From Thermoflexus sp. (GTDB taxonomy: Bacteria > Chloroflexota > Anaerolineae > Aggregatilineales > Aggregatilineaceae): DNA of 64,000 bases. Position 1 is the stretch's first letter, and each line of letters starts with the position of its first letter. Made by a program: the position numbers and the translations under genes. The notes beneath the pieces are model-generated. The model was not told the origin of the DNA and did not search any database. It worked only from the letters and a program-made list of their open reading frames with translations. Shown piece by piece: positions 20,039-31,991 of this stretch. The stretch lies in assembly GCA_020724465.1 (NCBI GenBank), contig DYGX01000009.1, positions 1-64,000 of the forward strand, written 5' to 3'.

Positions 20039-20533
20039 TTAGCTGGCGGGCTTGAGCGCCCAGACAAAGACGCGCTCCGGCACATCGATGTTGCGCAGTG
20101 TCAGCGTCAGCTCTGTGACGCCGTCCATCACCACGGCACCGTCAACTTCAGCCGGAAAACTGAGCGTCCCCGAGACATGGTGTCCCCCTGAGGGCGCATC
20201 CCACCTGACAGGCGAAATGGTCAGGCCGGTATCGGTAGACAGCGTGGCCTGCTCGGCCAGGTTCATATCCAGTTCAACGGAATGCGTGTTCATAGCCACT
20301 CTGAAGTCAAGCGTCTGCCCCAGCCCGCCGAGGTTCAGTGGCAGCACCTCGACGGACACCGCCCCCTGCTTATCGGTCAGCGGCATTTTCGGGAAACCCT
20401 CGCCAGCGCGGGCCTCGACCACCGCCGACGTGTCTTTCGATTCGGCGAGCGCAGTCGCCAGCAGCAGGACAGCTCCGGCCAGAACGATCAGCGCCACAAC
20501 AGGCACGACAACCCGCAGACTTTTGCCGCTCAT
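20039..20533 (-). CDS. Hypothetical membrane-anchored protein with one N-terminal segment
   Basis: 164 residues. One hydrophobic segment (about 7-30, LRVVVPVVALIVLAGAVLLLAT) anchors a beta-rich extracytoplasmic domain of about 125 residues (VEVLPLNLGGLGQTLDFRVAMNTHSVELDMNL). The family is not recognised with confidence. The pattern of this domain with the GGHHVSGTLSFPA loop looks like small secreted metal-stress proteins seen near copper genes, but that is impressionistic. The start codon overlaps the stop of the next gene upstream (20530-20533, ATGA), so the pair is translationally coupled. Confidence 0.6.
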   Translation of the reverse strand: MSGKSLRVVVPVVALIVLAGAVLLLATALAESKDTSAVVEARAGEGFPKMPLTDKQGAVSVEVLPLNLGGLGQTLDFRVAMNTHSVELDMNLAEQATLSTDTGLTISPVRWDAPSGGHHVSGTLSFPAEVDGAVVMDGVTELTLTLRNIDVPERVFVWALKPAS

Positions 20534-21021
20534 ACTCCCCTCGCAGAGAACTCCATCGCACGCAGCGCCCTGCGCCGCTCTCGAACCAGAATCACCATCA
20601 TGAAACCGATCCCAAACAGCGTCATGCTCAACCCGATTACCATGAAAGCAAGGCGGTATTCAGCCAGAAACGCGGTTGCCGCCGTCAAACCGAGGACGGG
20701 CAGCACATCCGTGACGTGATGGGCGCAGCAAGCCACCATCGCGATAGTCGAGGTTGTTCCGCTTGCCCCGGCCAGTGTCCCGGACGGGCCGGTGTATACG
20801 ACCGGCACAAACAGCCGTTTCTTCAAGATCACATACAGCGCCATCTGGACGCCGAATCCCACAACGATCGGGACGACGATCAGGCGGTCTTCCCAGAACA
20901 GGTCGACGGCGTGCCGCGGGCTTTCGGCGATGGAGACGATGCCCACATAGAGCGCCACCAGGAACCCGGCCCCCAGCAGGCCGGCTCCGATGGGCCACCC
21001 AATGCGCTGTCGGGCAGTCAT
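20530..21021 (-). CDS. Four-helix membrane protein of unknown function
   Basis: 163 residues from ATG 21021 (MTARQRIGWPIG). Four hydrophobic segments are visible (about 8-28, 47-63, 90-112 and 125-145 in this numbering). Between the second and third lies a TLAGASGTTSTIAMVACCAHHVTDVLPVLG stretch (Cys-Cys-Ala-His-His) that could be a metal site. It overlaps the following gene by four bases. It could be a heavy-metal transport or assembly protein by analogy with MerC/MerT-like small membrane proteins, but I cannot assign it. It is the first gene of the minus-strand group and is divergent from copA. Confidence 0.6.
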   Translation of the reverse strand: MTARQRIGWPIGAGLLGAGFLVALYVGIVSIAESPRHAVDLFWEDRLIVVPIVVGFGVQMALYVILKKRLFVPVVYTGPSGTLAGASGTTSTIAMVACCAHHVTDVLPVLGLTAATAFLAEYRLAFMVIGLSMTLFGIGFMMVILVRERRRALRAMEFSARGV

Positions 21022-21107
21022 GCGCGCGGTCCTTTCCTCTCCAGACGTTTCGTGCACAGCTTATCAGGTTCTGCTGCGCCGCAAGAGCGTCATATGGCGC
21101 TTCTTGA

Positions 21108-21281: not shown

Positions 21282-23720
21282 ATGAGTGAGAAGGCTATCA
21301 CGCTGCCGGTGACCGGGATGACGTGCGCCAACTGCGCGGCGACCATCGAACGCAGCCTGCGCAAGCTTGACGGCGTAAAAGAAGCAACCGTGAACCTTGC
21401 CAGCGAGCGGGTCAGCGTGATCTATGACGCCGGACTGCTGGCGGAGAACGACATCATCGGGCGCATCCGCCATGCCGGCTACAACGTGCCGCAGCAAACT
21501 ATGGAGATGGCGATCACCGGGATGACGTGCGCCAACTGCGCGGCGACGGTCACGCGCGCGCTGCGCAAAGTGGACGGCGTGCTGGATGCGAGTGTCAACT
21601 TCGCCAGCGAGCGCGCCACCGTGACGGTCGTGCCGGGCACCTCGCGTGAGGCGCTCTCAGCCGCCGTCGAGAAGGCCGGGTATGGCGTGGTGACGGCAGA
21701 AACAGAGGACGAGCTGATCGACGCGGAGCAGGCCGCACGCGAAGCGGATATCCGGCATCAGGTGCGGCGGCTGGGGATCGGCGCGCTGTTCACGATCCCG
21801 CTGTTTCTGCTAACCATGACGCGCGATTTTGGCTTGCTCGGCATGTGGGCGCACGAGCTGTGGTTCAACGGGTTGCTAATGGCGCTGGCGACACCGGTGC
21901 AGTTCTACGTCGGTTGGGATTATTACACCGGCAGCTATAAGGCGCTGCGCAACGGCACAGCCAATATGGACGTGCTGGTAGCGCTTGGCACCAGCGTCGC
22001 GTACTTCTACAGCGTCGCCGTCATGCTCGGGGTGCTACCCGGTCATGTCTACTTTGAAACCGCTGCCGTCATCATTGTCCTGATCGTGCTGGGCAAGCTG
22101 CTCGAAGCGCGCGCCAAAGGCCGCGCCAGCGAAGCCATCAAGCGGTTGATGGGCTTGCAGGCCAAGTCCGCCCGCGTGGAACGGGATGGCGTCGAGCTAG
22201 ACATCCCGGTGGAGCAGGTGCGCGTCGGCGACATCGTCATCGTCCGCCCGGGCGAGAAAGTTCCGGTCGATGGCGTGATCCTTGAAGGGCACAGCGCCTT
22301 TGACGAGAGCATGATCACGGGCGAGAGTCTGCCCGTTGACAAGCAGCCCGGCGATATGGTGATCGGCGCGACCCTGAACAAGCAGGGGCTGGTGAAGTTC
22401 AAGGCCACACAGGTCGGGCGCGAAACGGCGCTGGCCCAGATCATCCGGCTGGTGGAGCAGGCTCAGGGCAGCAAAGCCCCGATCCAGAAGCTGGTGGACC
22501 GGGTTTCGTCCGTGTTTGTGCCCGCGGTGATCGTCGTGGCGATCGGCGCGTTTGCCGTGTGGATGCTCGCAACAGGGGACTCGACCGCCGCTACGGTGCG
22601 GCTGATTACAATTCTGGTCATTGCCTGCCCATGCGCGATGGGCCTCGCCACACCGACCGCGATCATGGTTGGAATGGGCAAAGGCGCCGAGAACGGCATC
22701 CTGTTCAAGAACAGCGAAGCGCTTGAGCGCGCGCACAAGCTCACCGCGATCGTGCTTGACAAGACCGGCACGCTGACACGCGGCGAACCGAGCGTCACGG
22801 ATCTGGCGGTGAGCGAGAGCGCGGCCTCGGACGCGGCGCGGCTGCTCGCGCTGGCGGCCAGCGCCGAGCGCGGCAGCGAACACCCGCTCGGCGCGGCGAT
22901 CGTTCGCGCGGCACAAGAGCGAGGAATCGCCCTCAGCGCCCCGCACGATTTCGAAGCTATCACCGGCCAGGGCATCCGCGCCACCGTGGACGGGCGAACC
23001 GTGCTCGTGGGAAACCTCGCGCTGATGGTCAGCAACGGCGTGCATCTGAACGGGTTGGAGCCAGAAGCAGAGCGGCTGCAGCGCGAGGCTAAAACCGCGA
23101 TGTGGCTGGCGGTGGATGGGCAGGCCAGCGCAATTATCGCCGTCGCCGACACGATCAAGGACGGCTCGATTGAGGCCGTGCGCCGCCTGCACGAACTCGG
23201 CCTGACGGTTGTGATGATGACCGGTGACAACCGGGCCACCGCGCACGCGATCGCCGCCAAGGTCGGCATCGATCGCGTCTTCGCCGAAGTCAAGCCCGGC
23301 GACAAGGCGGCTTATGTCCGGCAGTTGCAGGACGAAGGGTACCTCGTCGGCATGGTCGGCGACGGGATCAACGATGCGCCGGCGCTGGCCCAGGCAGATG
23401 TTGGTTTCGCGATTGGCACGGGCACCGATGTGGCGATGGAAGCGTCCGATGTGACGTTGATCAGCGGCGATCTGCGGGGCATTCCCCGCGCCATTGCACT
23501 CAGCAAGAGTACAATGCGCACAATTAAGGAGAATCTGTTCTGGGCATTCGGCTATAACACGGTGCTGATCCCCGTGGCAGCGGGCGCCCTCGCCCCGTTT
23601 AACTGGGCGCCGTCGTTCCTGCAGCAGCTCAGCCCGATCCTGGCGGCGGGGGCGATGGCCTTCAGTTCCGTCAGCGTGGTCACGAACAGTCTGCGGCTGC
23701 GACGAGTGAAGCTCCGCTGA
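21282..23720 (+). CDS. copA: Cu(I)-exporting P1B-type ATPase CopA
   Basis: 812 residues from ATG 21282 (GAGG upstream). Two N-terminal HMA domains have identical loops GMTCANCAA (Cys15/Cys18 and Cys83/Cys86). Membrane segments follow, then CPC in the sixth segment (Cys449-Pro-Cys451), the phosphorylation motif DKTGT (Asp493), the SEHPLG nucleotide-binding motif and GDGINDAP (Asp694). The last two membrane segments carry YN (GYNTVLIP) and M-x-x-SS (MAFSSVSV), the P1B-1 signature for Cu(I)/Ag(I). It exports cytoplasmic Cu(I). It faces a group of small metal-binding genes, and two operator-like repeats sit upstream. Confidence 0.97.
21312..21343 (+). repeat. 32-bp direct repeat in copA, copy 1 (HMA domain 1 loop)
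   Basis: A 32-base identical stretch beginning ACCGGGATGACG and ending GCGCGGCGAC occurs here and again at 21516-21547, exactly 204 bases (68 codons) downstream and in the same frame. It encodes the [10 protein letters not shown] metal-binding loop of the first HMA domain. DNA-level identity beyond protein need suggests a recent duplication or gene conversion between the domains. Confidence 0.85.
21516..21547 (+). repeat. 32-bp direct repeat in copA, copy 2 (HMA domain 2 loop)
   Basis: Second identical copy of the 32-base stretch at 21312-21343, encoding the [10 protein letters not shown] loop of the second HMA domain. Outside it the two domains diverge. Confidence 0.85.
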
Positions 23721-23791
23721 GTCGTCGAGAGTCAAAGTAGAGGGCCGGGCAGGTGAAGACTATCTGCCCGGCACACACTAAGGAAGCAGCC

Positions 23792-24595
23792 ATGCCAACT
23801 ACCGGCCCATCCTCTTCACGCTCGTTGACCATTGTGCAAAGTGTAATGCGACATTGGCTGACGATTTTTCTCGTCGGTTACGGCATTTTCAACGCCTTGC
23901 CGTTTGCCGCGCCGGTGTTCATGCGGCTTGGATGGTCCGGCCCTGCCGATGCGATCTACACCGGCTATTCGCTGCTCTGCCACCAGATGGCGCAGCGTTC
24001 GTTCTTTCTATTTGGCGACCGCCTGATGTACGCGCCCGACGAGCTGCCGCTGGCGCTCACAGGCAGCACCGGAACCGACACGCTGCTGCTGAGGAACTTC
24101 CGTGGCAGCCAGGCGCTCGGCTGGAAGGTGGCGTGGTCAGATCGGATGGTGTCTCTTTATGGCGGGGTGTGGCTGGCAGGTCTTGTCTATTGGGCCGTGG
24201 CGCGCGTTCGAGCCGTGAAGCCACTCCCCATCAGCGTGTTCGTACTGCTTCTATTGCCACTGGCCATCGACGGCGGCACGCACATGCTCAGCGACAGCCT
24301 GGGTGGGTTAACCGCCGGTTTTCGCTATCACAATGACTGGCTGGCTGCTCTGACCGGCAACAAACTGCCCGTTACGTTTTACAGCGGCGACGCCCTCGGC
24401 TCGTTCAACTCGATGATGCGCCTGCTCACCGGTGTGCTGGCAGCAGCGGGGGTCGTGTGGCTTGCGTTTCCCATCATCGATCAGTCGGCTCGAAAGACGG
24501 TCGAGCGGATCGATCGGGTGGCGGAACTGCGCCGCTCAGCGTTTCTGCAACCCGGACGCGCAAACCCTGGCAGCCGCGATCAGGGGCGGGTTTAG
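23792..24595 (+). CDS. DUF2085-domain membrane protein
   Basis: 267 residues from ATG 23792 (AAGGAAG ten bases upstream). Several hydrophobic segments are visible (WLTIFLVGYGIFNALPFAAPVF; VWLAGLVYWAVARV; ISVFVLLLLPLAIDGGTHML; LLTGVLAAAGVVWLAFPII). The first loop contains TGYSLLCHQMAQRSFFLFG, the Cys-His-Gln motif of DUF2085, and DGGTHMLSDSLGG follows. The family is common in Chloroflexota and cyanobacteria and has no known function; the conserved Cys and His could bind a metal. It is 71 bases downstream of copA on the same strand, so the pair may be co-transcribed. Confidence 0.8.
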   Translation: MPTTGPSSSRSLTIVQSVMRHWLTIFLVGYGIFNALPFAAPVFMRLGWSGPADAIYTGYSLLCHQMAQRSFFLFGDRLMYAPDELPLALTGSTGTDTLLLRNFRGSQALGWKVAWSDRMVSLYGGVWLAGLVYWAVARVRAVKPLPISVFVLLLLPLAIDGGTHMLSDSLGGLTAGFRYHNDWLAALTGNKLPVTFYSGDALGSFNSMMRLLTGVLAAAGVVWLAFPIIDQSARKTVERIDRVAELRRSAFLQPGRANPGSRDQGRV

Positions 24596-24777: not shown

Positions 24778-25407
24778 TTAGCCGGCAACCTCGTACTCCG
24801 CCAGCAACGATTCCATCAACTCGATTTCCGCGGTCTGATCGTCGATAATCTGCTGAGCCAGCGCGAGCAGCTCCTCATGCACTGCGTAGCGCAAAATGCG
24901 CTCGGACATATGCACCGCGTCGTCGTGGTGGTCGATCATCGCTTCCAGCCAGGCGGCCTCGTACTCAACCCCTTCGACGCGGTCAAGCCCGGCCATCATG
25001 CCCATCATCAGCGGCATATCGGTCATCGGGTTCGTGGTGTGATCGCCGTGCCCCATCTGCATTCCTGCGTCCGGAGCCAGGCCCATCAGCTCCATGAGCT
25101 GCGACATCGGCATCGGCGCATACTCAATCCCATACCACTCGCGCAGCCAGCCGCGTAGTGTCTCAATTTCCGGCGTCTGCGCGTCGATCACGCCCTGGCA
25201 GACCGATCGGAACGACTCCGTTTCAACCTTCGCCAGACAGTCTTCGGCCATATCCAGCGCCATCTGGTGATGGTCAATCATGCCTTCCATGTAGCGCACT
25301 TCCGCCCGCCCCGCGCGCCCGGCAGCCGGGCCGTCGGCAGCTACCGGCACCACAAACGCCACAACGGAAACCAGCACAACGAGCGTCACACTCATTCGCT
25401 TTAGCAT
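24778..25407 (-). CDS. DUF305-family secreted protein
   Basis: 209 residues from ATG 25407 (AGGAG upstream); a longer frame exists but covers the regulatory region. An N-terminal signal (about 3-24, RMSVTLVVLVSVVAFVVPVAA) leads to two DUF305 repeats with the His pairs YMEGMIDHHQMALDMAE and WLEAMIDHHDDAVHMSE. The linker is Met- and His-rich (MPMSQLMELMG; MQMGHGDHT; PLMMGMMAG), as in copper-binding proteins. Members such as CopM bind copper outside the membrane. It is divergent from the PCYCGC operon and shares its regulatory palindromes. Confidence 0.9.
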   Translation of the reverse strand: MLKRMSVTLVVLVSVVAFVVPVAADGPAAGRAGRAEVRYMEGMIDHHQMALDMAEDCLAKVETESFRSVCQGVIDAQTPEIETLRGWLREWYGIEYAPMPMSQLMELMGLAPDAGMQMGHGDHTTNPMTDMPLMMGMMAGLDRVEGVEYEAAWLEAMIDHHDDAVHMSERILRYAVHEELLALAQQIIDDQTAEIELMESLLAEYEVAG

Positions 25408-25477: not shown

Positions 25478-25495
25478 CATGCGCCATTTGGCGTG
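25478..25495. promoter_or_regulatory. Palindromic operator A between the DUF305 and PCYCGC genes
   Basis: CATGCGCCATTTGGCGTG has the core CGCCATTTGGCG (near-palindrome CGCCA/TGGCG). On the minus strand a -10-like TATTAT is at 25455-25460, so this site would overlap the -35 region of the DUF305 gene. The same core recurs 105 bases away. No known regulator motif was matched. Confidence 0.6.
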
Positions 25496-25582: not shown

Positions 25583-25602
25583 CATACGCCATTTGGCGCA
25601 TG
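25583..25602. promoter_or_regulatory. Palindromic operator B upstream of the PCYCGC operon
   Basis: CATACGCCATTTGGCGCATG, the best copy of the island palindrome. A -10-like TATAGT lies at 25623-25628, so the site sits over the -35 region of the plus-strand operon starting at 25662. Two copies, one per divergent promoter, point to coordinate control. Confidence 0.6.
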
Positions 25603-25661: not shown

Positions 25662-26102
25662 ATGAAGCTGCTCGTTCGATGCACTCTCTTGTTCGCGCTC
25701 CTGGCGGGCGCCGCGTCGCTGTCGGGCTGCGGAAGCAGCGGCGAACACCCATCGGCTTCGGTCAAGCTGCCGGAATGGATCAGCAACGCGCCCCCCCGCG
25801 TGCGCGAAGCCTACGACTATGCCATCTCGCACGGGGATGAGCTTCAGCACTATCCCTGCTACTGCGGGTGTGGCGCGATGGGTCACACCAGCAACCTGAG
25901 CTGCTACATCCGCGACGTGGCCGAAGACGGCACGATCACGTTTGACGCCCACGCGACCGGCTGCGGCATCTGTGTGGACATCACACAGGACGTGATGCGC
26001 CTGAAAGCCGACGGACGATCGTCGCCGGATGTGCGCGCCTACATCGACGCGCAGTACAGCCCGTTCGGTCCCGGCACCAACACGCCTCTGCCCCAGGGAT
26101 AG
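25662..26102 (+). CDS. PCYCGC-motif lipoprotein
   Basis: 146 residues from ATG 25662, with GGAGGG seven bases upstream. The signal ends in a lipobox (AASLSGC, Cys at about residue 24), so it is a lipid-anchored extracytoplasmic protein. The centre holds HYPCYCGCGAMGHTSNLSCYI and a later TGCGICVDITQDVM, the features of the PCYCGC-motif family (PF13798), whose function is unknown. The Cys pattern suggests metal binding. It is the first gene of an operon with cupredoxin, DUF1573-like, polyferredoxin and cytochrome c genes, seven bases before the next start. Confidence 0.9.
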   Translation: MKLLVRCTLLFALLAGAASLSGCGSSGEHPSASVKLPEWISNAPPRVREAYDYAISHGDELQHYPCYCGCGAMGHTSNLSCYIRDVAEDGTITFDAHATGCGICVDITQDVMRLKADGRSSPDVRAYIDAQYSPFGPGTNTPLPQG

Positions 26103-26108
26103 CGTCGC

Positions 26109-26612
26109 ATGACACGCCATGTGACCCGTCCCCGGCTGATCGCGGCGTCCTTCGGGCTGCTCGCACTTGTGATCTTCGCCGTGCCACCCGGCAGCGCGAC
26201 GCCACCTGTAGAACGTAGGGTGGAGATCGACGCGACGCAGTTTGAGTTCGCGCCAGGCCGGATCGTCGTGAACCGGGGCGACCACGTCACGATCCACCTC
26301 ACGGCGTCGGATGTGGTCCACGGCTTCTATCTGGACGGCTACGGGTTCGAGCAGCGTGTCGAGCCGGGTGTCGCGCAGGAACTCGCATTTGTGGCGGACC
26401 GGGCGGGCAAATTTCGCTACCGCTGTGCCGTGCCGTGCGGACCGCTACACCCATTCATGATCGGCGAGCTGGTAGTGAACGCCAACACCCCATACTGGCG
26501 CGCGATCGGCGTGGTGTTCAGCGCTGCGGCTGGGATGCTGATTTTTCTGTGGCAAGCAGGCAAGACCGAGTCCCTTGAGGAGAATACCCATGAAACCCAA
26601 CCACGTTTCTAA
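26109..26612 (+). CDS. CuA-type cupredoxin, COX2-like, membrane-attached
   Basis: 167 residues. A signal or anchor (about 8-30) precedes a cupredoxin domain with all CuA ligands of the cytochrome oxidase subunit II type: His71, Cys106, Cys110, His114 and Met117 (YRCAVPCGPLHPFM). A hydrophobic segment at about 131-149 (AIGVVFSAAAGMLIFLWQ) tethers the C-terminus. There is no subunit I gene nearby, so it is not clearly part of a haem-copper oxidase. It may be an electron carrier or copper acceptor working with the other redox genes of this operon. The stop overlaps the next gene by 23 bases. Confidence 0.88.
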   Translation: MTRHVTRPRLIAASFGLLALVIFAVPPGSATPPVERRVEIDATQFEFAPGRIVVNRGDHVTIHLTASDVVHGFYLDGYGFEQRVEPGVAQELAFVADRAGKFRYRCAVPCGPLHPFMIGELVVNANTPYWRAIGVVFSAAAGMLIFLWQAGKTESLEENTHETQPRF

Positions 26613-27114
26613 ACCGCGTCGAGCCAGGAAGCGCACCTGGCATAGTGCCGTGTGGATGCTGGGCGGCGCGATTGGGAGCATCCTGCTGATTGTCGCGGCG
26701 CTGGCGTTTACCTCGCGCGGGAAAGACCAGCCGGGCCAGACGGCGTTCGATCCCGATTTCAAGCCAAAGGTTAGCGGGGCGCCGCGTGTTGAGATCGTTC
26801 AGGGCGAGGTGCTGGATTACGGGAAGGTCAAGCTCAATACGGTGATCAACACTGTTTACACCGTGCGGAACGTCGGCGACAAGCCACTGCTGATTTACGG
26901 CGAGCCGCGTATTGAGGTCGTCCAGGGCTGCTGTCCGCCGCGCGCCGTCGTCAGCTCGATGGTCATTGATCCTGGGCACGAAGGCACCATCTCCATGACG
27001 TACTCGATGCATGAAGGGATGGGCGGCCCGCACGAGTTCCGCGTGCATCTGCGGACCAACGACCCGGCTGAGCCGACCAAATATCTGACGATTTATTCGG
27101 ACTGGGTGTCGTAG
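26590..27114 (+). CDS. DUF1573-like membrane-anchored Ig-fold protein
   Basis: 174 residues from ATG 26590, with GAGGAG before it and 23 bases of overlap with the cupredoxin gene. One membrane segment (about 22-41, VWMLGGAIGSILLIVAALAF) is followed by an extracytoplasmic domain with DYGKVKLNTVINTVYTVRNVGDKPLLIYG, the pattern of DUF1573, in which a beta sandwich carries a Cys. Here there is a Cys114-Cys115 pair (VQGCCPPRAVV) and Met/His-rich ends (MTYSMHEGMGG) that could bind copper. Function is unknown; coupling in the same operon suggests copper delivery or redox partner work. Confidence 0.75.
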   Translation: MKPNHVSKPRRARKRTWHSAVWMLGGAIGSILLIVAALAFTSRGKDQPGQTAFDPDFKPKVSGAPRVEIVQGEVLDYGKVKLNTVINTVYTVRNVGDKPLLIYGEPRIEVVQGCCPPRAVVSSMVIDPGHEGTISMTYSMHEGMGGPHEFRVHLRTNDPAEPTKYLTIYSDWVS

Positions 27115-27116
27115 CG

Positions 27117-28499
27117 ATGCTCAACCAGGGGCGCATCGACCTGCTGGAGCGCATGCCGCCGCTCAAGCGCGTTTTGAAGGCGCGCGCCTTCCAGCCGGCG
27201 ATGATGCTGCTGACGCTGGCGGTGTTCACGCTGGCGATTCTCGCCGGGCTAGCCGGCACGCCAGCCGGCAACCGCAACTTTGGCATTGTCTTCGTCTGGA
27301 TCGTCTGGTGGGCGCTGCTCATCGCCGTGCTCGTCCCGTTCTTCGGGCGGCTGTGGTGCACGGTCTGCCCCATTCCCGCGCCCGGCGAGTGGCTCCAGCG
27401 CCGCGCCATTGTGCAGCGCCGGCCGGGCAGGCTGTGGACGCGCGGCCTGCGCTGGCCCCGGCGCCTGAAGAACATCTGGCTTCAGAACCTCGGCTTTCTT
27501 GGTGTCGCGCTGTTCAGCACGATCATCCTCACCCGCCCAAACGTCAGCGCCTGGGTGCTGCTCAGCTTTCTGCTGGCCGGAGTGGTGCTGAGCGCGCTGT
27601 ACCGGAACCGCGTCTTCTGCCGCTATGTCTGCCCGGTCGGCGGGTTCATCGGCCTGTACTCGATGCTGGCACCGGTCGAGTTGCGCGTTGCCGATCCGGA
27701 CGTTTGCGTGGCGCATAAGACGAAAGATTGCCTCACCGGCAACGAATTCGGCTACGGCTGCCCGTGGATGACGTACCCCGGCAGCCTGCAGCGCAACGCG
27801 GCATGCGGCCTGTGCTTCGAGTGCCTGAAGACCTGCCCCAAGAACAATATCGTCCTTAACCTGCGCGCTCCCGGCGGCGACCTGCTGGTTGCGGATGAGC
27901 GCCGCCTGGATGAAGCGTACAAGGCGTTCATCATGCTCGGCTGCGCGCTGCTGTACTCGGCGGTGCTGCTCGGTCCGTGGGGCTGGCTCAAAGCGTGGGC
28001 GAACATGCACACGCTGCCTCACTGGGGGTTGTATGCGCTCGGCTTCGTCGTGCTGAATCTGGCGATCTTGCCGGGAACGTTTGGCGCGGCGGTATGGCTC
28101 GCGCGGCGGATCGCCCGCCAGCCTCAGCCGCTGCGCCGGCTGATCGTGGACTATGCCTACGCGCTGATCCCGTTGGGGCTTGCGGCGTGGATCGCGTTCA
28201 CGTTCGGATTCGTGCTGGTCAACGGCAGCTATGCGCTCGCGGCGCTGTCCGACCCGTTCGGGTGGGGCTGGGATCTGTTCGGTACGGCGAGCACGCCCTG
28301 GACGCCGCTAGGCGAGTCTGTTCTGCCCTTCTTGCAGGTCGGCGTCCTGACAGCAGGGCTGCTATTCGCTTTGCACACAACCTACAAGATCGCCCGGCAG
28401 AACAGCGCGCAGCACCGGGCTGCCTTTCTGGCGACGCTGCCGATCAGTGGCTTCGCGGTGCTCATCACGCTGGGCTTTCTGAGGCTTTACCTGGGTTAA
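27117..28499 (+). CDS. NapH/NosR-like membrane polyferredoxin
   Basis: 460 residues, starting two bases after the previous stop. Membrane segments include MMLLTLAVFTLAILAGLAG, FGIVFVWIVWWALLIAVLVPFFG and several after residue 260. Cytoplasmic or periplasmic Cys motifs are WCTVCPIP, CRYVCPVG and CGLCFECLKTCP, the latter a [4Fe-4S] ferredoxin motif, plus a Cys-rich insertion CVAHKTKDCLTGNEFGYGCPW. This pattern matches the C-terminal part of NosR, NapH and CcoG, which move electrons across the membrane to periplasmic copper or Mo enzymes. No nosZ or nap genes are in the window. It would take electrons from quinol or a soluble donor and pass them to the CuA/cytochrome partners. Confidence 0.85.
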   Translation: MLNQGRIDLLERMPPLKRVLKARAFQPAMMLLTLAVFTLAILAGLAGTPAGNRNFGIVFVWIVWWALLIAVLVPFFGRLWCTVCPIPAPGEWLQRRAIVQRRPGRLWTRGLRWPRRLKNIWLQNLGFLGVALFSTIILTRPNVSAWVLLSFLLAGVVLSALYRNRVFCRYVCPVGGFIGLYSMLAPVELRVADPDVCVAHKTKDCLTGNEFGYGCPWMTYPGSLQRNAACGLCFECLKTCPKNNIVLNLRAPGGDLLVADERRLDEAYKAFIMLGCALLYSAVLLGPWGWLKAWANMHTLPHWGLYALGFVVLNLAILPGTFGAAVWLARRIARQPQPLRRLIVDYAYALIPLGLAAWIAFTFGFVLVNGSYALAALSDPFGWGWDLFGTASTPWTPLGESVLPFLQVGVLTAGLLFALHTTYKIARQNSAQHRAAFLATLPISGFAVLITLGFLRLYLG

Positions 28500-28501
28500 G
28501 G

Positions 28502-29524
28502 ATGAAACAACGGGAGCTGCTGGCACTTTTTGCGCTGGGGCTGATCCTGCTCGGGCTGCCCCTGGCGGTGCTGGGTTATCAGTACTGGCTCAGGCCGGCG
28601 CTTTCGCCAAACCGTATCATTGACATTGCCGCCCGAGTGCCAGAGCAAGCCGGGTTCGCGCCGGATGCGATCCGCGTGGCCGTGGGCGAGACGGTCACGC
28701 TGCGCTTCGCGTCGATGGACGTGACGCATGGGGTTGCAATCGGGCCAGGATTAGGCGTGGATCTCGGTCCAATCGATCCTGGCCAGGTCAAAGAGATCAC
28801 GCTCAGCTTCGACCATCCCGGTATCTACACCTACTACTGCACGACCTGGTGCAGCCCGGATCACTGGCGCATGCGCGGCACGATCCAGGTAAGCGACCCG
28901 GCCAATCCCGATGTCGTGCCGGCTGCGCAGCCGGACCGGGTGATTGAAGCGTTGATCGCGGAAGGGATTGACATTGACGCGGCGCACACCCCCCCGGCCG
29001 AACACGCCGACATATCTATCCTGGCGTTCCAGCCATCGGCGCAGCGCGGTGAGTTGGTCATCGCGGGCGGGCTGGATGTTCCTGCCGAATTGCGCGACCC
29101 GGTATGGCGGCAGTCTCACACGCCAGCACAAGCTCTCGAACTGCTGACCGGCCAAAATCCGGCTACGTCCGAACGCGATCGGCTGGATGCGATCGCCTAT
29201 CTCTGGACGCAAGACACGGCAGACGAGGCCCTCGCAACCGGCAAGCGGTTCTATAACCAGAACTGTGCGGCGTGCCACGGGCAGTCCGGCGGCGGTGACG
29301 GCCCGGCGGCGGCGACCACTGCCGAAGAGCCGGTCGCGTTTTCGGACCCCGGCTACATGTTCGAGCGGCGGAGCGACGTGCTCTACGCCAAGATCCGGCG
29401 CGGAGGCATGGGCACGGGCATGCCGAACTTTGGCACGTTGTTCACCCCCGAGGAAACCTGGGCGCTCGTGCGCTATCTGTGGACGCTGACTTTTGGGACA
29501 CCACCCCGCACACACACCGGATAA
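28502..29524 (+). CDS. CuA cupredoxin-cytochrome c fusion
   Basis: 340 residues from ATG 28502. An upstream extension of the frame lies inside the polyferredoxin gene and is spurious. An N-terminal anchor (about 6-29) is followed by a cupredoxin with His76, Cys113, Cys117, His121 and Met124 (YYCTTWCSPDHWRM), the complete CuA set, then a linker and a monohaem cytochrome c domain with CAACH (Cys255, Cys258, His259) and the likely axial Met307 in GMPNFG. The arrangement recalls caa3-type subunit II, but again without subunit I. It is the last gene of the PCYCGC operon and would receive or pass electrons in the extracytoplasmic space. Confidence 0.92.
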   Translation: MKQRELLALFALGLILLGLPLAVLGYQYWLRPALSPNRIIDIAARVPEQAGFAPDAIRVAVGETVTLRFASMDVTHGVAIGPGLGVDLGPIDPGQVKEITLSFDHPGIYTYYCTTWCSPDHWRMRGTIQVSDPANPDVVPAAQPDRVIEALIAEGIDIDAAHTPPAEHADISILAFQPSAQRGELVIAGGLDVPAELRDPVWRQSHTPAQALELLTGQNPATSERDRLDAIAYLWTQDTADEALATGKRFYNQNCAACHGQSGGGDGPAAATTAEEPVAFSDPGYMFERRSDVLYAKIRRGGMGTGMPNFGTLFTPEETWALVRYLWTLTFGTPPRTHTG

Positions 29525-29617: not shown

Positions 29618-30295
29618 ATGGCAGCAGAGCAACCGATTCGCGTGATTCTGGCAGATGACCATCAGGTCGTGCGGCACGGGATCCACCAGTTCTTGACAAC
29701 AGCCGGAATCGAGGTGCTCGCCGAGGCAAGCGACGGCGCCCAGGCGCTGTACCTGATCGAGCAGCACCAGCCGGATGTAGCAGTCCTTGACATTCAGATG
29801 CCGGAGTTCAGCGGCATCGAAGTTGCGCGCCGCGTGCGGGCCAGGGGCTGGCCGGTGGGTATTCTGATTCTCACCGCGTTCGATGACGATCCGTTTATTA
29901 TGGCGGCCCTGGAAGCGGGCGCGAACGGCTTCGTGCTCAAGACCGCCGATATTGAAGCCATTATTGAGGCCGTGCGCGCCGTGAACGAGGGGCGCTCTGT
30001 GCTCGACCCGCAGATCATCCCCAAACTGATGCACGCGGTGACCGCTGCGCGGCACGAGACGGTGCCCTATGAGCCGTTGACCGCTCGCGAGCTGGAAGTT
30101 CTCCAGGCCGCTGCGCGAGGGTTGACCAACAAGGCGATCGGGCTGATGCTCGACATCAGCGATCGCACCGTGCAAGGGCATTTGCGCCGCATCTTCGAAA
30201 AGCTCAACGTGGCAAACCGCACCGAAGCGGTGGTGAAAGCCACGCAACTCGGGCTGCTTGACTTGCCCGCATCGGACATCCATGCGACTGACTAG
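29618..30295 (+). CDS. NarL/FixJ-family response regulator
   Basis: 225 residues. The receiver domain (residues 5-122) has the acidic pair Asp13-Asp14, the phospho-acceptor Asp58 (VAVLDIQMP) and a late Lys (GFVLKTAD). The C-terminal LuxR helix-turn-helix covers about 150-215 (LTARELEVLQAAARG then DRTVQGHLRRIFEKL). It overlaps the sensor kinase gene by 14 bases, so they are a pair. It is on the same strand as, and directly downstream of, the redox/copper operon, so it might control it, but the gap holds its own candidate promoter. Target genes are unknown. Confidence 0.93.
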   Translation: MAAEQPIRVILADDHQVVRHGIHQFLTTAGIEVLAEASDGAQALYLIEQHQPDVAVLDIQMPEFSGIEVARRVRARGWPVGILILTAFDDDPFIMAALEAGANGFVLKTADIEAIIEAVRAVNEGRSVLDPQIIPKLMHAVTAARHETVPYEPLTARELEVLQAAARGLTNKAIGLMLDISDRTVQGHLRRIFEKLNVANRTEAVVKATQLGLLDLPASDIHATD

Positions 30296-31991
30296 CCTGC
30301 CTCTTCAACTGCTGGCGCTGCTGGTCCTGCCGCTGCTCGCGCTGCTTGTGCTCGTCGCATTTGGGGGTGTGGCGGTGCACCAGGCGGAGATGCGCGATCT
30401 GCTGGTCAACCACAACCGGCAGCTCACCGCCGCCGCCGCAGTCGCTCTCTCCGGCCAGTTGGAGCAGCGCCAAAACGTGGCGCTGAGTCTGGCGCGCGTC
30501 GCAGAACGGATCGGCCCCGATGAAGTCCTGAACCAGGCCGGGCCGCTCGCCGCTTTGTTTGACAGAGGCATCGCGATCCACACGGCGGATGGGCAACTGC
30601 TGGCCGCTGCTATGCCAGCGCACAGCAGCCAGGTTATTGTGGATCAGGCCCTCGATATTTCCCCGCCCGGCATCCTGGCTCAACTGGAACGTGACGGAAA
30701 CGGCACCCGGACACTGCTGCTCAATGTGGCTTCGGGCGAGCAGGGGCTACGGGTTACCGGTCTCAGCTCGCTTGACCTCGTCGCCGAGGCTGCGGGGCTG
30801 GGCAGCCACCCCGAAGCTGTAACGCTTGGTGCGCTGCTGCTGGATCGCGACGGGACCATCCTGCTGAGCAGCGATCCGGCGCAGGTCGGCACCCTCTTTG
30901 ACGGCGCACCCCAGATCACGGCGAGCGAGCGCACCGCGGCATTCGAGCGGATCGACACCCAGGGGCACGATGTCATCACCACAGCCGCGCCGATTCCCCT
31001 GGCTGGCTGGACGCTGGTATACGAGGAACGCTGGCACGAAACCCTTAGCCCGATTGCCCAGTACTCGCAGGCGGCACCGCTGATACTGGTGCCCGGCCTG
31101 CTGATCGCGCTCGGCACGGTCTGGTTTGGCATCCGGCGCGTGGTGCTGCCGCTGCGCAAGCTGGAAGCGCAGGCGAACGAGCTGGCCTGGGGGAACTACG
31201 CCGCGATCGAGCAGCAGGTCGGCGGGATCGAGGAGATCCGGCACCTGCAAGAGACGCTCCAGCAGATGTCGAAGCGGGTCCAGGCGGCACAGGCGAGCAT
31301 GCACGATTACATTGGCGCCATCACCCGTGCTCAGGAAGACGAGCGGCGGCGCCTCGCCCACGAACTGCACGACCAGACCGCGCAGGCGCTGGTTGCGCTC
31401 GATCATCGCCAGCAGATGTTAAAGCCCTATCTTCGCGACGATCCGGCGGCAGCCGCCCGGCTGGCCGAGATTCGCGAGATGATCGCCGCCACGATGGGCG
31501 ATCTGCGGCGCATCGTGCGCGCGCTGAGACCCGCCTACCTGGAAGAACTTGGGCTTGCCCCGGCCCTCGAGATGCTGGCACGCGATCTCCAGCGAGACGA
31601 CCGGCTCGCCATCCACTTCGAGAAGCACGGCACTCCCCAACGGCTGGCGCCGGAGCGCGAAATGGCCCTCTACCGTATCGCGCAAGAAGCCCTGAACAAC
31701 GCCTGGCAGCACAGCGGCGGGTCCGATATCTGGCTTGCGGTGCGTTTTGAGCCTGACCAGGTCACCGTCACGGTGCGCGACAACGGCAAAGGCTTTGCCG
31801 CGCCGCAGCACGCGGCAGACCTGGGCACGTCAGGGATGCAGCACTTCGGGCTAATGGGGATGTACGAGCGCGCCTCGCTGATCGGCGCGCATCTGCAGAT
31901 TCGGTCGGAACCCGGCAGCGGCACTACCGTAAGCGTCGGGGTGCCGACGAACGCAGTTTCGAGCGAGCCGGCCCGCTCTGCGTCGGCCTGA
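30282..31991 (+). CDS. NarX-type sensor histidine kinase
   Basis: 569 residues from ATG 30282. A first membrane segment (about 8-27), an extracytoplasmic sensor of about 230 residues with a Cache-like LGALLLDRDGTILLSSDP stretch, a second membrane segment (about 268-283) and a HAMP-like linker precede the HisKA_3 dimerisation domain with ERRRLAHELHD (His363) and an HATPase_c domain (IAQEALNNAWQHS, DNGKGF, FGLMGMYER). It autophosphorylates and passes phosphate to the regulator at 29618-30295. The ligand is not known; an aerobic/anaerobic or metal signal would be consistent with the neighbouring redox genes. Confidence 0.92.
   Translation: MRLTSLPLQLLALLVLPLLALLVLVAFGGVAVHQAEMRDLLVNHNRQLTAAAAVALSGQLEQRQNVALSLARVAERIGPDEVLNQAGPLAALFDRGIAIHTADGQLLAAAMPAHSSQVIVDQALDISPPGILAQLERDGNGTRTLLLNVASGEQGLRVTGLSSLDLVAEAAGLGSHPEAVTLGALLLDRDGTILLSSDPAQVGTLFDGAPQITASERTAAFERIDTQGHDVITTAAPIPLAGWTLVYEERWHETLSPIAQYSQAAPLILVPGLLIALGTVWFGIRRVVLPLRKLEAQANELAWGNYAAIEQQVGGIEEIRHLQETLQQMSKRVQAAQASMHDYIGAITRAQEDERRRLAHELHDQTAQALVALDHRQQMLKPYLRDDPAAAARLAEIREMIAATMGDLRRIVRALRPAYLEELGLAPALEMLARDLQRDDRLAIHFEKHGTPQRLAPEREMALYRIAQEALNNAWQHSGGSDIWLAVRFEPDQVTVTVRDNGKGFAAPQHAADLGTSGMQHFGLMGMYERASLIGAHLQIRSEPGSGTTVSVGVPTNAVSSEPARSASA

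Follow-up and report, generated by a model that had tools for sequence, protein, structure and literature searches.

The cassette and its electron-transfer proteins

The window considered here, a stretch of 64,000 nucleotides assigned to Thermoflexus sp., is contig C25 of a 4.4 Mb genome that is 99% complete and has its relatives in the Anaerolineae, the nearest named one being an ‘Anaerolinea sp.’ metagenome-assembled genome (MAG; 93% for the NapH-like protein). On its + strand five tightly spaced or overlapping genes (25662-29524) combine two copper proteins of the CuA type with a membrane polyferredoxin resembling NapH, a PCYCGC lipoprotein and a DUF1573 protein. Domain assignments of the window genes are from Pfam and NCBIfam models (TM, transmembrane).

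25662..26102, + strand: PCYCGC lipoprotein (PF13798, E 7e-31)
26109..26612, + strand: small CuA protein, CuA-1 (COX2, 2.5e-8), with a complete CuA ligand set, motif at 26424-26459
about 26590..27114, + strand: DUF1573 protein (PF07610; NF041425 below cut-off), with an N-terminal TM segment and the vicinal Cys motif GCCPP
27117..28499, + strand: NapH-like polyferredoxin (Fer4_5, 1.4e-9; NapH/MauN, 5.5e-8, far under cut-off)
28502..29524, + strand: CuA-cytochrome c fusion, with a TM anchor, CuA motif at 28838-28873 and haem site CAACH at 29264-29278

The sequence-only reading had picked out this operon for its two CuA-type domains and for the lack of an accompanying catalytic subunit, and gene and domain calls bear this out. 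Both cupredoxins had been credited with every CuA ligand, and the residues can be mapped as H71-x34-C106-x3-C110-x3-H114-x2-M117 in CuA-1 and H76-x36-C113-x3-C117-x3-H121-x2-M124 in the fusion protein, the full set of His, Cys, Cys, His and Met by which each is predicted to be a CuA cupredoxin. The motif CxxxCxxxHxxM is kept in 93/93 CuA-1 and 87/89 CuA-cytochrome orthologs, and since it is near-invariant, and the gene order is kept in dozens of genomes, neither ligand sets nor order can be put down to chance. The CuA fold and complete ligands are shared with subunit II of caa3 oxidase and with the C-terminal CuA domain of NosZ (nitrous oxide reductase), the latter being the best NCBIfam match of CuA-1, which has a hydrophobic stretch at each end. 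In caa3 subunit II, too, cytochrome c is joined to CuA, and the CAACH site confirms that joining, as first claimed, for one of the cassette proteins. Unlike these counterparts the cassette proteins are without a catalytic subunit, and they are much smaller or differently arranged.

The NapH-like protein has four TM helices, then a ferredoxin-like domain that is probably cytoplasmic, then five further helices; its AlphaFold model (pLDDT 83) has nine long membrane helices with the iron-sulfur domain after the fourth, and it has Cys residues that are invariant among orthologs. CxxCP and CxxxCP motifs, ferredoxin-like cysteines, the N-terminal four-helix part and a presumed role as quinol dehydrogenase are held in common with NapH, NosR and MauN, from which it differs by the additional five helices and by having CuA proteins, not NapG, as partners. 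At 32.6 bits against a cut-off of 213 for TIGR02163 (NapH/MauN) it is a relative rather than a member, and PDB sequence and fold searches with the model yielded no convincing solved structure. CcoG/RdxA, a membrane iron-sulfur protein acting as cupric reductase (PMC7558416), is similar in kind and in copper context, with Cu(II) reduction only proposed for the protein here. It is not itself CcoG: no TIGR02745 match was given at E 0.01, nor in the genome search, and it has no counterpart of the Ig-like domain of CcoG. Most orthologs share His200 (27714-27716), which falls within a ferredoxin motif, and one family (f3) has Cys there instead; a His-ligated iron-sulfur cluster is possible.

In the PCYCGC lipoprotein the lipobox Cys is Cys23, besides which six Cys (66/68/70/81/101/104) and His75/97 are conserved among 37 orthologs. 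A profile search placed CcmH (2kw0) second by E-value, after a ferredoxin and weakly (0.0046), and two structure comparisons with the PCYCGC model (pLDDT 89) put both solved CcmH structures first, with weak Z scores of 5.1 and 4.7. The CxxC, E-G-K-S and Y-x-x-F-G features of CcmH, and perhaps its three-helix fold, are found also in the C-terminal half of PCYCGC, which differs in its extra CYCGC motif, its lipoprotein anchor and the UxxC form that it takes in relatives; no ccm gene lies beside it in the window.

Selenocysteine in the relatives

Both of the Cys-rich proteins have a position at which the window encodes Cys and many relatives have an in-frame TGA, read here as selenocysteine (Sec).

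25962..25964, + strand: Cys101 codon TGC of PCYCGC; TGA (Sec), in the motif UxxCVD, in 16 relatives
26932..26934, + strand: second vicinal Cys codon TGT of DUF1573; in-frame TGA (Sec) in 38 relatives
26947..26963, + strand: site equivalent to the DUF1573 SECIS hairpin; partial G-U pairing, with stability equal to that of shuffles (z 0.31)

Translations of the DUF1573 orthologs show a stop within EGC*PP. The second vicinal Cys is TGA at 38 of 51 loci and TGC or TGT at the other 13, and all 38 stops at this position are TGA, never TAA or TAG. In PCYCGC it is the opening residue of [C/U]xxCVD that TGA encodes, at 16 loci and at that one position, TAA and TAG again never occurring. About 12-14 bases 3' of each TGA is a SECIS-like hairpin of 6-7 pairs with a 5-base loop. 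That of DUF1573 is paired in 99.5% of cells with 46 double-sided changes, and its pairing, double-sided changes and covariation score exceed those of all 500 shuffles and of all slid controls; that of PCYCGC is paired in 100% of cells and has one compensated pair. Sequencing error or pseudogene formation, the other explanation of an in-frame TGA, is ruled out by the uniformity of the 38 DUF1573 stops, their single position and the covarying hairpin.

As to the decoding machinery, 37 of the 43 TGA-bearing genomes have tRNA-Sec at more than 60 bits and four of the other six have SelB above cut-off, so that one or the other is found in 41/43; the two genomes left over are assemblies of about 2 Mb. 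Most genomes of the group have tRNA-Sec, and for that reason its correlation with the Sec form is not significant (p 0.27); presence of the machinery was used instead. Given the TGA, the hairpin and, in nearly all these genomes, tRNA-Sec or SelB, DUF1573 and PCYCGC are, to judge from these sequences, selenoproteins in the relatives. The window's own two proteins are Cys forms with a weak residual hairpin only, despite which the genes for tRNA-Sec and SelB adjoin each other on contig C24 of its genome. Centralia_MAG_208 has two cassettes, one with a Sec form (L086:5020-5061) and one with a Cys form (L089:9817-9858) of DUF1573.

Taken singly the two families are known, as OS_HP2 (DUF1573) and OS_HP4/CYCXC (PCYCGC), with Sec in UGC/UxxC (PMC9312934, PMC13188914). 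The domains are the same and the relatives considered here likewise have TGA with a SECIS-like hairpin, whereas the window members, as Cys forms, fall under the NCBIfam cut-offs. No description of a CuA-NapH cassette as the setting for either was found in the literature searched, from which most subscription journals were excluded.

Distribution, related modules and neighbours

A search of 400 Chloroflexota genomes found NapH-like relatives in 71, and a scan of named genomes found 207, of whose loci 80 were fetched, the same contig being reached twice in some (L043/L113, L045/L158, L044/L134). In the combined set the NapH-like gene is accompanied by PCYCGC at 78 loci, nearly always together with genes for CuA-1 and the CuA-cytochrome protein; the DUF1573 gene may be before, inside or after the cassette, or absent. 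The hosts are mostly Anaerolineae and other Chloroflexota, and also Acidimicrobiia, Rokubacteria and Methylomirabilota. PCYCGC-bearing modules group together, with moderate support, in a tree of the NapH-like protein, and the few PCYCGC-negative ones inside that group are mostly at contig ends.

Stripped to CuA-NapH-CuA, the core is a module whose PCYCGC-negative forms occur in varied settings. In a Chloroflexota MAG (L137:9367-14872) the relay adjoins a full-length NosZ (854 bits). Two loci (L131:7698-11461, L153:7418-11473) have a fused CuA-NapH directly after a reductive dehalogenase (RdhA; TIGR02486 above cut-off), along with a small membrane protein, and the fusion is possibly the electron donor for the dehalogenase. 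At a further such locus (L126:11327-13090), and also at L044:287-2143, the gene adjoining the relay is for a GltD-like NAD(P)H flavoprotein, which suggests cytoplasmic electron entry in some lineages. A triad of HCO II, a NapH-like protein with nine TM helices, and HCO II was described in 2015 in the nar operon of Methanoperedens (PMC4683180), and ‘undescribed’, the term of the sequence-only reading, was accordingly too strong. The window cassette, too, has a CuA protein, a nine-TM NapH-like protein and a further CuA protein in one operon, the three in the same order as in the archaeal triad, with 45% identity (L154). The archaeal operon has NarGHJ and a haem-b protein and is without PCYCGC, DUF1573, a CuA-fused cytochrome c and copper genes; the cassette has the first three, and no Nar gene is beside it, copper genes being there instead. 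As the core adjoins NosZ (L137), Nar (L154) and RdhA (L131, L153), we infer an outward flow of electrons, supplied by quinol or by a donor in the cytoplasm, and take the core for a general relay in that direction rather than one specific to copper.

The window's own flanks are as follows.

21282..23720, + strand: CopA-type Cu+-exporting P-type ATPase with two HMA domains (TIGR01511, 618.6 bits, above cut-off)
23789..24595, + strand: DUF2085 membrane protein, a recurrent neighbour
24778..25407, - strand: DUF305/CopM-like periplasmic metallochaperone, transcribed away from the cassette; probable start, set by its signal peptide
25482..25493, + strand: first copy of CGCCATTTGGCG, between the divergent DUF305 and PCYCGC genes, in their promoter region
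25587..25598, + strand: CGCCATTTGGCG, second copy, in the same region
29618..30295, + strand: NarL/LuxR-type response regulator, with orthologs (50-98% identity) recurrent near the cassette
30282..31991, + strand: NarX/NarQ-type histidine kinase with a Cache-like sensor (domain search), downstream of the cassette

There are four copies of CGCCATTTGGCG in the whole 4.4 Mb genome, two of them the pair in the divergent promoter region; because the other two appear intragenic, the pair as a possible operator is suggestive only. A related NarL-type regulator is near 36 loci.

That the adjoining genes handle copper holds beyond the window. Taking the neighbourhood as 8 kb around the NapH-like gene, and for the copper test loci flanked by 10 kb or more, copper-type genes (CopA, HMA, YHS, multicopper oxidase (MCO), DUF305 and others) are near 37/58 PCYCGC-bearing loci and 0/8 modules without PCYCGC (Fisher p 7e-4, uncorrected for ancestry); CopA is near 23 of the 78. 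Of the ‘copper redox system’ first suggested, the copper association of the PCYCGC form thus stands, and copper specificity of the core does not, given the company of NosZ, Nar and RdhA that it keeps in relatives.

What the relay may serve

Where would the electrons go? The Cys/Sec proteins are the sole constant partners of the PCYCGC form, and its surroundings are rich in copper genes; for that reason we propose, tentatively and at rather less than even confidence, that the speciality of this relay is to reduce copper outside the cytoplasm or to handle it reductively. Electrons from menaquinol or from a reductant in the cytoplasm would enter the iron-sulfur clusters of the NapH-like protein and go on to CuA-1, tethered to the membrane, and from there to the CuA-cytochrome c fusion. 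Their final recipients would probably be extracytoplasmic copper together with PCYCGC, with its two Cys motifs, and DUF1573, with its vicinal Cys-Cys or Cys-Sec, Cu(II) becoming Cu(I) and being bound by thiolates or selenolates, and so captured or safely delivered in parallel with export by CopA. A more exacting form of this, in which the system is dedicated to extracytoplasmic copper reduction and delivery and two Cys/Sec proteins capture Cu(I) with electrons from the relay, is possible and somewhat more doubtful.

Several considerations weigh against a copper role. CuA and haem c centres usually have potentials near +200 to +250 mV, from which Cu(II) or high-potential acceptors are reducible and disulfides are not, so that a thiol-reducing role fits poorly. 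The fusion of cytochrome c to CuA suggests a diffusible partner. No copper gene is nearby at 21 of the 58 loci with enough flank, and the association ignores shared ancestry and is set against a PCYCGC-negative sample of only eight. The likeness of PCYCGC to CcmH (E 0.0046; Z about 5) is weak, and the window genome already has a genuine CcoG (506 bits, contig C19).

A relay serving a distant acceptor is a strong rival. The cassette would be a general quinol:cytochrome c/cupredoxin oxidoreductase that hands electrons to a diffusible periplasmic carrier and so supplies some reductase or oxidase whose genes lie elsewhere, while PCYCGC and DUF1573 would assemble the two CuA sites through Cu(I) insertion or thiol reduction, as Sco/TlpA do for cytochrome oxidase. 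The sharing of the core with NosZ, Nar and RdhA loci points this way, as do the cytochrome c fused to CuA-2, the TlpA- and CcdA-like genes that recur near the cassette and the possibly CcmH-like fold of PCYCGC, CcmH acting on apocytochrome c thiols. So too does NosZ, present in 16 of the 50 genomes that were scanned (for the most part PCYCGC-bearing ones) and nearly always elsewhere in the genome; 34, however, are without it, and no recurrent catalytic reductase emerged among the 72 neighbour families scanned. Modules without PCYCGC and DUF1573 exist in Methanoperedens, Thermoflexus, L126 and L137, so these two are not needed for CuA assembly in general, which is compatible with a special need here. 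We regard this carrier-based account as possible and, like any of these readings, short of probable.

An oxidative system, in which CuA and cytochrome c would take electrons from Cu(I), oxidised as by CueO, or from the thiols or selenols of PCYCGC and DUF1573, and deliver them into the respiratory chain, would suit the potentials of CuA, which favour accepting electrons, and the CueO-like multicopper oxidases near 8/78 cassettes. It is improbable: the membrane polyferredoxin would be superfluous, and the core's place beside reductases in relatives implies an outward supply. A role in detoxifying or respiring a different metal or metalloid (Hg, Se, As), the copper genes being there only through mixed resistance islands, is a similarly long shot; one locus (L050) has predicted MerA-like and MerR-like genes upstream of the cassette and a few have ArsR-like ones, but such mercury and arsenic genes are sporadic and the recurrent neighbours are of the copper types CopA, HMA, DUF305, YHS and MCO.

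Very improbable, lastly, is an accessory operon of nitrous oxide reductase or haem-copper oxidase, for which the closeness of the CuA domains to that of NosZ and the adjacent NosZ of PCYCGC-negative L137, alone among the fetched loci, might speak; genome and neighbourhood searches lead us to reject it, NosZ being within 8 kb of 0/78 PCYCGC-bearing loci and COX1 of 1/78; the consistent linkage that, in the sequence-only reading, would have made the operon an ordinary accessory is not seen. The window genome has no NosZ; what matches TIGR04246 and NF052460 there is partial and confined to CuA domains. COX1 is absent from C25, the genome's matches being on contigs C4, C19 and C23; on C4 (139921-140702; L003, L004) are two tandem short COX1-like matches, one with a TAG.

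In the textbooks CuA belongs to cytochrome oxidase and nitrous oxide reductase; in the present case it is part of a stand-alone relay, one that different lineages pair with nitrate reductase, NosZ, reductive dehalogenase or copper genes. The core triad was already known from one archaeal operon. What appears new in the literature searched is a conserved cassette joining it to the two selenoprotein families, along with the copper genes around it and the pattern of selenocysteine use. Through the copper-linked cassette these two orphan families acquire a common genomic context and a role that can be tested. If copper reduction is indeed their business, a reductive extracytoplasmic step joins bacterial copper homeostasis, for which one review of the field names CcoG as the only specific bacterial cupric reductase, and a pathway of that homeostasis spanning several phyla would use selenoproteins, of which the same literature has no description.

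Two lesser features of the neighbourhoods may be added. At 20039-21057 on the - strand of the window are two proteins without Pfam match that recur together near the cassettes of other genomes. One open reading frame neighbouring PCYCGC cassettes (alignment A6) matches the mercury-methylation protein HgcA (NF040863, 2.7e-136).

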